Positions 28,321 through 33,178 of a stretch of 64,000 nt of DNA are shown in pieces. A program made the position numbers and the translations under genes. The stretch is from Gammaproteobacteria bacterium (GTDB lineage Bacteria; Pseudomonadota; Gammaproteobacteria; Thiohalomonadales; Thiohalomonadaceae), in NCBI GenBank assembly GCA_026196275.1, contig JAPHTQ010000022.1, forward strand, positions 1 to 64,000. The letters run 5' to 3'. Position 1 is the first letter of the stretch. Each line of letters starts with the position of its first letter. The notes beneath the pieces are model-generated. The model was not told where the DNA came from. It saw only the letters and a list, made by a program, of their open reading frames with translations, and searched no databases.

Positions 28321-31020
28321 ATGCCTGCAAAAAACGATAAAACCCTGGTACTGGTAGATGGCTCCTCCTACCTCTACCGTGCCTTTCACGCCATGCCGGC
28401 GCTGACCAACTCCAGGGGCGAGCCTACCGGCGCGGCCTACGGGGTGACCAACATGCTGCGCCGCCTGCTCAAGGACTACGACCCGGCCCACGTGGCGGTG
28501 GTGTTCGATGCCAAGGGCAAGACCTTCCGCGACGAGATCTACCCCGAGTACAAGGCCAACCGACCGCCGATGCCCGACGACCTGCGCGGCCAGATCGAGC
28601 CGATCCACGCTATCGTGCGTGCCATGGGTTTCCCGCTACTCTGCGTCGACGGCGTCGAGGCGGACGATGTGATCGGCACCCTGGCCAAGCAGGCCGAGGA
28701 GCAGGGGATGAAAGTGATCGTCTCCACCGGCGACAAGGATATGGCGCAACTGGTCAACGATCACGTCACCCTGGTCAACACCATGACCGAGACCGAGATG
28801 GACCCCGACGGGGTGGTGGAGAAGTTCGGCATTCCCGCCGAGCGCATCGTCGACTACCTGGCGCTTATCGGCGACACCGTGGACAACGTCCCCGGCGTGC
28901 CCAAGGTGGGACCGAAGACGGCGGTGAAGTGGCTGCAGCAGTACGGCTCGCTGGAGAATATCATCGAGAACGCCGATGAGTTCAAGGGCAAGGTGGGTGA
29001 GTACCTGCGAGAGAGCCTGACGCAGCTGCCGCTCTCCAGGGAGCTGGTGACCATCAAGTGCGATGTGCCGATGCCGCTCAAACCGCTCGAACTGGAGCGG
29101 GCCGAGCCCGATACCCAGGCGCTGCGCGAGCTCTATTCAGAGATGGAGTTCAAGAACTGGTTGGCCGAGCTGCTTGGCGGGGAGTCTGCCGCCGAGGAGG
29201 AGAGTGAAGAGCAGGAGGCCGAGTACGAGACGATTCTTGACTGGGAGCGGTTCGATGGCTGGCTGGCCAGGCTCAAGGCTGCCGAGCTCTTTGCCTTCGA
29301 TACCGAGACTACCAGCCTCAACTACATGGACGCGCAGATCGTCGGCCTCTCCTTTGCCGTCGAGCCACATCAGGCTGCCTATGTGCCGCTGGCCCACAAC
29401 TACCCCGGTGCCCCCGAGCAGCTGCCGCGCGATGCGGTGCTGGCGAAGTTAAGGCCCCTTCTGGAGGACGACAAGGCACTCAAGCTGGGGCAGAACCTCA
29501 AGTACGATAAAAGCGTGCTGGCCAATCACGGCATCACATTGCGCGGCATCGCCCACGACACCATGCTCCAGTCCTATGTGCTCGACTCTACCGCCACCCG
29601 CCACGACATGGACTCGCTGGCGCTCAAGTATCTCAACGCCAAGACCACTAAATACGAGGAGGTGGCCGGCAAGGGGGCCAAACAGATCGGCTTCAACGAG
29701 GTGGCGATCGAGCAGGCTGCCCCCTACGCGGCGGAGGATGCGGATATCACCCTGCGTCTGCACCAGGTGCTGTGGCCCAGACTGCAGGCCATCGAGCCGC
29801 TGTCCAGATTATACAAGGAGCTGGAGGTGCCACTGGTGTCGGTGCTGTCGAAGATGGAGCGCAACGGCGTGCTGGTGGATCAGGCGATGCTGGAGAAGCA
29901 GAGCCGCGAGCTGAGCGAAAAGATGGAGGCGATCGAAAAGCGGACCTTTGATGAGGCGGGCGAGCCGTTCAACATCGGCTCGCCCAAGCAGATCCAGGCG
30001 ATCCTGTTCGACAAGCTGCAGTTGCCGGTGCTGAAGAAGACCCCCAAGGGGCAACCCTCTACTGCCGAGGAGGTGCTGGCCGAGCTGGCGCTCGACTATC
30101 CGCTGCCGCGGCTGATCCTCGACTACCGTTCGCTCTCCAAGCTCCGGTCGACCTATACCGACAAGCTGCCGCGGATGATCAACCCCCACACTGGTCGGGT
30201 CCACACCTCCTACCACCAGGCGGTGGCGGCCACCGGGCGGCTCTCCTCCTCCGAGCCCAATCTGCAAAACATCCCGGTGCGCAGCGAAGAGGGCAGGCGT
30301 ATCCGCCAGGCCTTTATCGCCGAGCCCGGCTGTCGCATCGTCGCCGCCGACTACTCCCAGATCGAGCTGCGGATCATGGCCCACCTCTCCGGCGACAAGG
30401 GGCTGCTGAGCGCCTTCGCCGCCGGCGAGGATATCCACCGCGCAACCGCCTCGGAGGTATTCGGGGTGGCGTTGGAAGAGGTCAGCGCCGAGCAGCGACG
30501 CAGCGCCAAGGCGATCAACTTCGGCCTGATCTACGGCATGTCCGCCTTCGGTCTGGCCAAGCAGCTGGGGATCAAGCGCGAGGCGGCGCAGAACTACGTC
30601 GAGCTCTATTTCGAGCGCTACCCCGGCGTGCGTGACTATATGGACAAGACCCGCGAATTGGCCCGCGAGCAGGGCTATGTGGAGACTGTCTTCGGTCGCC
30701 GCCTCTATATCCCCGACATTAAGTCGAGCAACGGACAGCGCCGCCAGTACGCCGAGCGCACCGCCATCAACGCGCCGATGCAGGGCACCGCCGCCGATAT
30801 CATCAAGCGGGCAATGCTCAGCGTGGATGGCTGGCTGGGCGACGAGCCGGAGGTGCAGATGGTGATGCAGGTGCATGACGAACTGGTGTTCGAGGTGCCG
30901 GAACAGCGAGTCGACGAGGTCTCGACGAAGATTATCGAGCTGATGAGCGGCGCGGCCGAGCTGCGCGTACCGCTGCTGGTGGAGGCGGGCAGCGGCGCCA
31001 ACTGGGACGAAGCCCACTAA
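28321..31020 (+). CDS. polA: DNA polymerase I
   Basis: An 899-residue Pol I with all three domains. The 5'-nuclease (1-290) has LVDGSSYLYRAFHAMPAL and STGDKDMAQLV. The 3'-5' exonuclease (about 305-495) keeps DTETTS at Asp327 and YAAEDADITLRL. The polymerase has motif A VAADYSQIELR (Asp near 677), motif B RRSAKAINFGLIYGMSAFGL and motif C QVHDELVFE (near 853). It fills gaps in repair and removes RNA primers. Both nucleolytic activities look intact. A small RNA gene follows. Confidence 0.98.
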   Translation: MPAKNDKTLVLVDGSSYLYRAFHAMPALTNSRGEPTGAAYGVTNMLRRLLKDYDPAHVAVVFDAKGKTFRDEIYPEYKANRPPMPDDLRGQIEPIHAIVRAMGFPLLCVDGVEADDVIGTLAKQAEEQGMKVIVSTGDKDMAQLVNDHVTLVNTMTETEMDPDGVVEKFGIPAERIVDYLALIGDTVDNVPGVPKVGPKTAVKWLQQYGSLENIIENADEFKGKVGEYLRESLTQLPLSRELVTIKCDVPMPLKPLELERAEPDTQALRELYSEMEFKNWLAELLGGESAAEEESEEQEAEYETILDWERFDGWLARLKAAELFAFDTETTSLNYMDAQIVGLSFAVEPHQAAYVPLAHNYPGAPEQLPRDAVLAKLRPLLEDDKALKLGQNLKYDKSVLANHGITLRGIAHDTMLQSYVLDSTATRHDMDSLALKYLNAKTTKYEEVAGKGAKQIGFNEVAIEQAAPYAAEDADITLRLHQVLWPRLQAIEPLSRLYKELEVPLVSVLSKMERNGVLVDQAMLEKQSRELSEKMEAIEKRTFDEAGEPFNIGSPKQIQAILFDKLQLPVLKKTPKGQPSTAEEVLAELALDYPLPRLILDYRSLSKLRSTYTDKLPRMINPHTGRVHTSYHQAVAATGRLSSSEPNLQNIPVRSEEGRRIRQAFIAEPGCRIVAADYSQIELRIMAHLSGDKGLLSAFAAGEDIHRATASEVFGVALEEVSAEQRRSAKAINFGLIYGMSAFGLAKQLGIKREAAQNYVELYFERYPGVRDYMDKTRELAREQGYVETVFGRRLYIPDIKSSNGQRRQYAERTAINAPMQGTAADIIKRAMLSVDGWLGDEPEVQMVMQVHDELVFEVPEQRVDEVSTKIIELMSGAAELRVPLLVEAGSGANWDEAH

Positions 31021-31114
31021 GATGGTTGTTTGCCACAGAGCCCGCAGAGAGCACAGAAGATAGGCGGGTATGAGCTTCGCGCCCTTGGCGTCTTTGTGAA
31101 AGAAAAAATGGCCG

Positions 31115-31142
31115 GGAACTTTCCCTGAGTGGGGTAGTCACA
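31115..31142 (+). promoter_or_regulatory. Sigma-E (RpoE/AlgU)-type promoter
   Basis: GGAACTT (31115-31121), a 15 bp spacer and GTCACA (31137-31142) match the -35/-10 pattern of extracytoplasmic sigma-E promoters (GGAACTT, about 15-16 bp, GTC.AA). The predicted RNA start is near 31148-31150, directly before the conserved-looking hairpins of the sRNA. Confidence 0.65.
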
Positions 31143-31148
31143 CTTAGT

Positions 31149-31269
31149 GCGCAACCATCGCGCATCCCGTTCTCTCCTTACGGGAAACTAACCCGGTTAA
31201 CCCCCAAGTGGCCGGGACTTGCTGGCCCCGATCGCTCTCCTCCCCAACTGGCGATCGGGGCTTTTTTTT
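31149..31269 (+). ncRNA. Small RNA in the polA-engB gap (Spot 42/ErsA locus)
   Basis: A transcript of about 120 nt is predicted from the promoter to a strong terminator. Three hairpins are visible. GCGC-AACCATC-GCGC spans 149-163 of the 31 kb block. A 6 bp stem TCCCGT/ACGGGA (31165-31185) shows the 9 nt loop UCUCUCCUU. The terminator shows a 15 nt loop containing CUCCUCCCC. The C/U-rich loops are complementary to Shine-Dalgarno sequences. In enterics and vibrios this gap holds spf, and in Pseudomonas aeruginosa the sigma-22-dependent ErsA. Homology at sequence level is not shown; position, promoter and architecture support the call. Confidence 0.75.
31225..31269 (+). terminator. Rho-independent terminator of the sRNA (and polA read-through)
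   Basis: GCCCCGATCGC pairs perfectly with GCGATCGGGGC (11 bp stem, 31225-31235 and 31251-31261) around a 15 nt loop, followed by eight Ts (31262-31269). Confidence 0.95.
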
Positions 31270-31360: not shown

Positions 31361-31395
31361 CTTTCAACTTTCAACTTTCAACTTTCAACTTTCAA
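31361..31395. repeat. Heptamer tandem array, five copies of CTTTCAA
   Basis: Five perfect copies of a 7-mer (TTGAAAG on the minus strand) cover the engB stop codon (31378-31380). The last five codons of engB and its stop are encoded by the array, so a change in copy number that alters the frame would change the C-terminus. Confidence 0.97.
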
Positions 31396-32004
31396 CTCGA
31401 TCCCCAGCCACTCGGCCAGCCTGGCCCGGGCCTCGTCCACGCCCTGGCGATTAAGGGCAGAGAAGAGCTGTGCTGAGGCCAGTGGGTAGCTCGTCTTGAG
31501 CTCTTTTCTCACCGCCTGAAGGGTATTTGACGCCGGCCCCCGCTTGAGTTTGTCGGCCTTGGTAAGCAGGATGTGCACCGGCATCTGCTGATGTTGGCAC
31601 CAATCGAGCATCTGGCGGTCAAACTCCTTGAGCGGATGACGGATATCGACCAGCAGTACCAGACCGCGCAGGCACTGACGGGTGGCCAGATAGTCCGATA
31701 GTACCTGTTGCCAGTGGCGCTTGATCCGCTCCGGGACCTTGGCGTAGCCGTAACCCGGCAAGTCAACCAGGCGGTGGGTCTCATCCAGTTCGAAGAAGTT
31801 GATCAGCTGGGTCCGCCCGGGGGTCTTGCTGGTCCGCGCCAGGTTGCGTTGCTCGGTGATCACATTCAACGCACTGGATTTGCCGGCATTGGAGCGTCCG
31901 GCAAAGGCCACTTCCGCGCCGCTGTCGGCGGGAAGCTGGTTAAGGGCATTGGCGCTGGTGAGAAAGCAGGCCTGCTTGAAGGGATTGGGGTTTTTTTTGT
32001 CCAT
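31378..32004 (-). CDS. engB: Ribosome-biogenesis GTPase EngB/YsxC
   Basis: A 208-residue circularly ordered TRAFAC GTPase that assists late assembly of the 50S subunit. Motifs: G1 GRSNAGKSS, switch [12 protein letters not shown]3 [11 protein letters not shown]4 LLTKADKL and G5 [11 protein letters not shown] 32004 ([18 protein letters not shown]) fits the family; an in-frame ATG at 32043 would add 13 residues. It is convergent with polA and the sRNA and divergent from the cytochrome genes. Confidence 0.95.
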
Positions 32005-32210
32005 GGATGCGTAAGTTTTTTGCGAATATAAGGGGCCCCTCATATTGACCGGGGGTGGCTGAGTTGGTATATACAGGGCGTTTTAGCTTTTGCCGCTACT
32101 TGCCGGGGATGGTAACATGAGCGTCTTCCGGCCAGTAAGATTATCTGAAATAGGCCTCCTTCCTCGCTTGAGAAAGGCGGGTCGTAACCTCAACGAGGAG
32201 TAAACTTGTA

Positions 32211-32528
32211 ATGAAAAAGTCCATTATTGCTGCTGCTGCGGGTGCAGTTTTCATGGTTTCCGCTCCGGCCGCGATGGCCGACGGTAAGGCTACCTATGAC
32301 GGTATCTGCTTTGCCTGTCACGCCTTCGGTTCTGCCGGTGCACCCAAAACCGGTGACAAGGCAGCCTGGGCGCCGCGTATCGCCAAGGGTATGGATCTAC
32401 TGGTCAAGCACGCCAATGAAGGCTTCCAGGGTGAGACGGGCTTCATGCCGGCCAAGGGTGGTAATCCGAGCCTGAGCGACGAGGAAGTTGCTGCTGCCGT
32501 TGAGTATCTGGTCTCACAGAGCAAGTAA
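32211..32528 (+). CDS. Small cytochrome c (c5/c-555-like)
   Basis: A 105-residue periplasmic monohaem cytochrome: signal peptide (cleavage after AAMA), haem motif CFACH near residue 34, APRIAKGMDLLVKHANEGF, and the axial methionine in GFMPAKGGNP followed by LSDEEVAAAVEYLV. This is the cytochrome c5 fold without the extra cysteine pair seen in the copy at 61.8 kb. It starts a short run with cytochrome c4 and the second resB-ccsB pair. Confidence 0.9.
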   Translation: MKKSIIAAAAGAVFMVSAPAAMADGKATYDGICFACHAFGSAGAPKTGDKAAWAPRIAKGMDLLVKHANEGFQGETGFMPAKGGNPSLSDEEVAAAVEYLVSQSK

Positions 32529-32572
32529 GTCCGAGGCCGCAAACCAACACAATCGAGATTGACGGGGAACCG

Positions 32573-33178
32573 ATGAAGAAATTAGCTTTTGCCGCTCTGG
32601 TAATGTTTGGTGCTGTGGGCACCGTCTACGCGGCCGGTGATGCCGCTGCAGGGAAAACCAAGTCCGCCTCCTGTGCCGCCTGTCACAATACAGACGGAAA
32701 CAGTATGGTACCGACCTTCCCGAAACTGGCCGGCCAACACGCCTCCTATACCGCGAGGCAACTGGCTGACTTCAAGTCCGGTGATCGTCAGGATCCGACC
32801 ATGAACGGCATGGCTGCCCCCCTGAGCGAGCAGGATATGGCCGATTTGGCCGCCTACTTTGCCAGTCAGACCCCTGCCATCGGCTCTGCGGCCGATGAGG
32901 CGAAGGCTGCGCGGGGCAAGACCCTGTATCAGGCCGGCGACAAGGAAAAGGGCATTTCTGCATGTATGGCCTGCCACGGTCCTTCCGGTGCGGGTAATCC
33001 GGGTGCCCAGTTCCCCTCAATCAAGGGTCAGCACAGTACTTATACCATTAAGGCGCTGAAGGACTTCCGCTCCGGTGTTCGTACTACCGACCCGCAGAAG
33101 ATGATGCAGGATATCGCTGCCAAAATGAGTGATGCCGATATCGAGGCAGCTGCCGAGTATATCGCCGGTCTGCATTGA
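32573..33178 (+). CDS. Dihaem cytochrome c4
   Basis: A 201-residue protein with a signal peptide (cleavage after TVYA) and two similar halves, each with a haem motif (CAACH in the first, CMACH in the second) and a distal methionine region (TMNGMAAPLSEQDM and the matching KMMQDIAAKMSDADI). It carries electrons in the periplasm, probably to a terminal oxidase. A cytochrome c4 gene near engB and dsbA is also the pseudomonad arrangement. Confidence 0.95.
   Translation: MKKLAFAALVMFGAVGTVYAAGDAAAGKTKSASCAACHNTDGNSMVPTFPKLAGQHASYTARQLADFKSGDRQDPTMNGMAAPLSEQDMADLAAYFASQTPAIGSAADEAKAARGKTLYQAGDKEKGISACMACHGPSGAGNPGAQFPSIKGQHSTYTIKALKDFRSGVRTTDPQKMMQDIAAKMSDADIEAAAEYIAGLH

Follow-up and report, generated by a model that had tools for sequence, protein, structure and literature searches.

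The analyzed stretch of 64,000 nt (hereafter, the window) carries polA, encoding DNA polymerase I, on the forward strand (28321–31020; NCBIfam NF004397 / TIGR00593, over cut-off) and, convergent to it downstream, engB/yihA on the reverse strand (31378–32043; NCBIfam TIGR03598, over cut-off). The gap between them contains a C/U-rich, strongly folding stretch with eight Ts at its 3′ end, 31269. On the forward strand of this gap we place a gene for a small RNA (sRNA; covariance model boundaries 31147–31269) with a predicted length of approx. 122 nt, whose 5′ start would lie at about 31146–31149. A perfect heptamer repeat (CTTTCAA, 5.3 copies, 31361–31397) spans the engB stop codon. Further, GCCACAGAGCCCGCAGAGAGCACAGAAG at 31026–31057 shows 91% identity to a second genomic site (G000:C67:21313–21344), and ccacagag-rich stretches resembling it are present in the gaps of some relatives. 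Small c-type cytochromes are encoded at 32211–33178, downstream of engB, and a cytochrome c4-like gene is found near engB at three homologous loci as well (L224, L236, L244), suggesting that the cytochrome neighborhood is conserved more widely.

Upstream of the sRNA, a promoter of the sigma-E/AlgU type was recognized on the forward strand, consisting of the −35 element GGAACTT (31115–31121) and the −10 element GTCACA (31137–31142), separated by exactly 15 nt as described in the initial annotation. The RNA folds with an energy of −51 kcal/mol and a z-score of −4.7; no sequence in a set of 200 shuffles folded as well. Four hairpins resulted, not the three claimed initially, and all of them fold and show covariation. 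SL1 is the 5′ hairpin (31148–31164, + strand; covariation in 6/6 modeled pairs). SL2 (31165–31185, +) exposes the loop UCUCUCCUU at 31171–31179, the proposed seed, and holds CUCCUUA, which matches the anti-Shine-Dalgarno sequence of the 16S rRNA. SL3 (31192–31216, +) has CCCCC in its loop, and SL4 (31224–31269, +; hairpin proper 31224–31262) is an intrinsic terminator with the 13-nt loop CUCCUCCCCAACU and a U8 tail, encoded by the Ts at 31262–31269, which is a possible Hfq site. The SL4 stem comprises 13 pairs, two of them G-U and hence 11 Watson-Crick pairs, in agreement with the 11-bp stem and eight Us reported before. Apart from the number of hairpins, the earlier coordinates and motifs were correct. 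A generic scan for sigma-70 promoters and terminators found nothing, as this promoter does not resemble the sigma-70 type and the 13-nt terminator loop exceeds the 8-nt limit of the scan.

Homologs were searched in order to examine conservation. The polA-engB gap yielded only two homologs in blastn, the sequence alone being too diverged. Many polA 3′ flanks in relatives contain a short RNA at similar distance with a matching layout: it begins with SL1, continues with SL2, whose loop is of the CUCUCUCCCU type, and SL3, whose loop is of the UCCCCAAG type, and closes with a terminator that has a pyrimidine loop. Since MAFFT, applied to 20 sequences, misaligned SL1 and SL2 and recovered just 15 pairs, four close relatives served as the seed for iterative covariance modeling. 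The first model, R1, was built from four sequences of the same family with the window left out; it matched the window at 53.2 bits (E-value of 8e-13) and about 45 other sites. The refined model, R2, whose training included the ErsA RNA of Pseudomonas cichorii, scored the window at 83.1 bits; E-values of both models are rough due to a short calibration. In the resulting alignment A6 of 49 homologs, 92.5% of pair cells are standard, double changes occur in 32 of 33 base pairs, and 366 compensatory cells were counted vs. 90 in shuffles, while shifting partners by one column reduces pairing to below 50%. The pairs of SL4 are the best conserved, and SL1 to SL3 each covary. As A6 was fitted to the structure and leans toward it, single-sequence folds give more independent support: 20 homologs folded singly have the same architecture despite differing stem sequences. 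Homologous loops keep their motifs and the stems vary by compensatory change. CUCCCU, the SL2 motif, is found in 36/51 homologous RNAs (6.4 in shuffles) and CCCCAAG, the SL3 motif, in 18/51 (1.6 in shuffles). Judged from these comparisons, conservation rules out a chance origin of the locus.

The promoter region lies outside the covariance model. A sigma-E-type site (pattern GAACY-N15–18-TC within 62 nt 5′ of the RNA) is present upstream of 41/51 homologous copies, mostly about 33 nt 5′ of SL1, compared with 3 of 48 control stretches farther upstream and an average of 1.1 in shuffled sequences. The comparison of gaps among relatives suggested in the initial annotation has found both promoter and loop motifs conserved. 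About 10 of the 51 homologs have no recognizable sigma-E site; hence, some lineages may use a different promoter and control may differ by lineage. Several copies (L214, L160, L168, L215 and others) keep the RNA body with an absent or poor site, and their promoters may have switched sigma factor. In the organism's own genome, genes for RseA and an RseB-like protein come directly after that for RpoE (TIGR02939, 322 bits), and an hfq gene is present. A GAACTC…GTCAGA site is located approx. 60 nt upstream of rpoE; a sigma-E-type site at this position is the usual autoregulation pattern. The sRNA is very probably under sigma-E control.

R2 matched 194 of 369 gammaproteobacterial genomes (E ≤ 0.01) and 17 of 20 genomes of the family (E ≤ 0.1), several of the latter being weak and off-locus. 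Many members within the class score 40–125 bits, and the top score outside the class in a phylum-wide sample was 36.3 bits (rough E-value of 2e-4). In genomes with located polA, 51/77 strong matches were within 3 kb on the polA 3′ side, 47 of these 51 copies in the same orientation as polA. The class-wide search ignores genomic location, and 28 of the 30 top-scoring loci have engB and/or polA within 1.5 kb. A number of loci (L224, L225, L229, L232, L234, L236, L244, L250, L254, L258, L262–L264) have engB next to the sRNA but yielded no polA; at some engB-only loci polA is missing where the contig or analyzed stretch ends, and in other genomes (e.g., G174, G144) it is clearly elsewhere. engB seems to be the more constant neighbor of the sRNA. 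Two to four tandem copies were observed at several sites (G189, locus L305 at G189:C33 13148–13900; G040:C49; G339:C15; G125:C1; G258:C15; G259:C1; L173; L063). Genome G189 has four between polA and engB, each with a promoter-like element; read from the sequence, three fit the pattern outright (GGAACT…GGTCTGA) and the fourth, GGAACAAACC…GGTCTGA, deviates in its −35 element. The SL2 hairpin is nearly identical in all four, with a common UUUUCUCCCUGAGCGG core. What these computations establish is the structure of the gene, the conservation of its fold, loops, promoter and locus, and the presence of rpoE-rseA-rseB and hfq in the genome.

Rfam was searched for related families. The window matched ErsA (also Pseudomon-1 RNA; RF01719) with 33.4 bits (E-value of 7e-5 in the gap), the match covering model positions 34–108 only and remaining below the gathering score of 50 bits. 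In the reverse direction, R1, trained on neither the window nor ErsA, matched the ErsA locus of P. cichorii at 22.2 bits (rough E-value of 6e-4). Like the window RNA, ErsA of Pseudomonas is located in the polA-engB gap and has an AlgU/sigma-E-type promoter, the P. cichorii copy included, and its SL3, SL4 and CCUCCCC loop align with the window RNA. However, the 5′ half (SL1, SL2) is not alignable; where the window RNA has the UCUCUCCUU hairpin loop, the published ErsA structure shows an unpaired stretch flanked by two stem-loops (PMC8575079). For ErsA, control by AlgU and Hfq-dependent repression of the porin gene oprD have been reported (PMC7264166). As the gathering threshold is not reached, the window RNA is not assigned to the Rfam ErsA family but placed in a broader one, defined by the model (R1/R2), the locus (adjoining the polA 3′ end and/or engB) and the promoter (GAACY-N15–18-TC 5′ of SL1), in which ErsA and sX13 score too. 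The window gene adjoins these genes and carries GGAACTT-N15-GTCACA, i.e., it has the ErsA-type setting of a polA-engB gap with an AlgU-type promoter.

The second relative is sX13 of the Xanthomonadaceae (RF02232), a 115-nt RNA which, like the window RNA, is located downstream of polA and has hairpins with C-rich apical loops. The window scored 21.1 bits with its Rfam model (gathering score 50 bits). R1 matched the sX13 locus at 19.2 bits (rough E-value of 0.004) and R2, not trained on sX13, at 38.5 bits (rough E-value of 4e-6); the identities of this locus and of the P. cichorii ErsA locus were confirmed by Rfam. sX13 is reported to act independently of Hfq and to repress by way of C-rich loops and of G-rich motifs located at start sites (PMC3771888); sigma-E control is not among the features reported in the passages considered, and in both respects sX13 differs from what we propose for the window RNA. 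A GAACTA-N15-GTCATA site upstream of an sX13 copy in a Xanthomonadaceae genome (L090, 3960–4121) leads us to predict sigma-E control for sX13 as well. In the literature searched, no paper naming both sX13 and ErsA was found. The anti-hemB RNA of Burkholderia (RF02837) gave 20.8 bits for the window (gathering score 49.5 bits) and no match in the window's own genome (G000), but its model matches many R2 sites and exceeds its cut-off in nine genomes; in the best-match genome, this RNA lies apart from both polA and engB. For ar14, 6C and Scr3202, the Rfam scores stayed below cut-off, and these matches were taken as generic resemblance of C-rich hairpins. VSsrna24 of the Vibrionaceae is another sRNA of this gap, where it neighbors Spot 42, but it is about 60 nt long and glucose-repressed (PMC3295665).

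The initial annotation expected the RNA to tie ErsA and Spot 42 together and proposed a search with both covariance models. The ErsA side is supported by shared locus and promoter type and by the match to one and the same model, whereas the Spot 42 side is not supported. The tie found here leads instead to sX13, absent from that annotation. A Spot 42 homolog controlled by CRP-cAMP, as Spot 42 itself is, and regulating carbon metabolism would have the identical polA-engB location as well as similar length and terminator, would account for a weak match over SL1 and the terminator, and might fit two strong predicted SL2 targets, an aldolase-family and a 6-phosphogluconate dehydrogenase-like protein. 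Nevertheless, the Rfam model (RF00021) gives the window just 13 bits (E-value of 7.8; gathering score 80 bits), and R2 run on E. coli Spot 42 with filters off reaches 17.6 bits, which is no more than chance matches attain in a 50-kb sample of E. coli DNA unrelated to it (18.7 and 17.2 bits). With chance-level scores in both directions, SL2 and SL3 missing from Spot 42 and a sigma-E-type promoter in the window, kinship with Spot 42 was rejected and this explanation is barely credible. At Shewanella loci, the R2 match is merely weak and falls on a site resembling Spot 42. A possible sigma-E-like remnant seen by eye upstream of E. coli spf was dropped, its GTC being too near the start site.

That the element is only a transcription terminator of polA, perhaps also of engB, with incidental hairpins upstream, could be argued from the strong terminator SL4 at the polA end and from its pairs being the best conserved. 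This is very improbable, however, since SL1, SL2 and SL3 all covary, a conserved promoter separates polA from the RNA, the RNA adjoins engB even where polA lies elsewhere, and tandem duplications provide a promoter-like element per copy. A real, conserved sRNA might also mainly sequester a protein (Hfq or CsrA-like) instead of pairing with mRNAs, in line with four stem-loops, repeated pyrimidine loops and multi-copy arrays resembling titrating RNAs in some genomes. Yet, the loops are CU/C-rich and contain no GGA as expected for CsrA binding, and both ErsA (PMC7264166) and sX13 (PMC3771888) are reported to act on mRNAs. We regard sequestration as a main function as unlikely.

In contrast to these explanations, we give a probability of roughly 85% to a free-standing gene for a trans-acting sRNA of approx. 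122 nt which is induced by sigma-E and masks Shine-Dalgarno sequences with its CU/C-rich loops, a mode of action also reported for ErsA and sX13. For its transcription, sigma-E control, Hfq use and targets, we infer the following course. Envelope stress would release RpoE from RseA, and RpoE would transcribe the gene from the promoter at 31115–31142 into an RNA terminating at SL4. Its loops, chiefly SL2 UCUCUCCUU, would repress translation by pairing to Shine-Dalgarno sequences or G-rich segments close to start codons; the repressed products would probably include exported or envelope proteins. Hfq probably acts at the U-tail, but its use is uncertain given the reported Hfq independence of sX13. 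Targets were predicted for 1.39 Mb of the organism's own genome (about half; 1073 genes with crude gene calls and starts). Among the best SL2 matches are starts with AAGGAGAGAG, belonging to genes of the aldolase-family and 6-phosphogluconate dehydrogenase-like proteins and of a small membrane protein; the top 40 also include a BON-domain lipoprotein, a cytochrome c and a porin. Of the 54 best SL2 targets, 28% are predicted to be exported proteins, compared with 14% of all genes (uncorrected Fisher P = 0.004, with three loops tested; 2/60 shuffled loops match the enrichment). As target prediction is weak, we treat this enrichment as a lead rather than a result.

That the polA-engB gap holds an sRNA gene of the sigma-E type whose loops mask Shine-Dalgarno sequences, as proposed initially, is well supported by comparative evidence, which indicates that the sRNA is real and conserved and ErsA-like in its predicted working. 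ErsA and sX13 are known as sRNAs; joining them, and possibly anti-hemB, into one family is the notable point. In Rfam, the three are separate families without a clan. One covariance model unites RNAs filed separately, which bears on a question left open by the sX13 authors. A match to the model was obtained in about half of the gammaproteobacterial genomes sampled, and nearly all of the 30 top sites are by engB or polA. The joined family is widespread, largely unrecognized and largely anchored to engB. We lean slightly toward the view that ErsA, sX13, probably anti-hemB and the window RNA descend, as forms typical of their lineages, from a single ancestral sRNA that was controlled by sigma-E and masked Shine-Dalgarno sequences. 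It would have stayed next to engB/polA in most Gammaproteobacteria as broadly defined by GTDB, undergone tandem multiplication in some lineages and given way to Spot 42 at this very site in enterics and vibrios. If true, the model could be used for annotating hundreds of genomes. MicA and RybB are the sigma-E sRNAs of enterics and, if this view is correct, one conserved envelope-stress sRNA would be their non-enteric counterpart.
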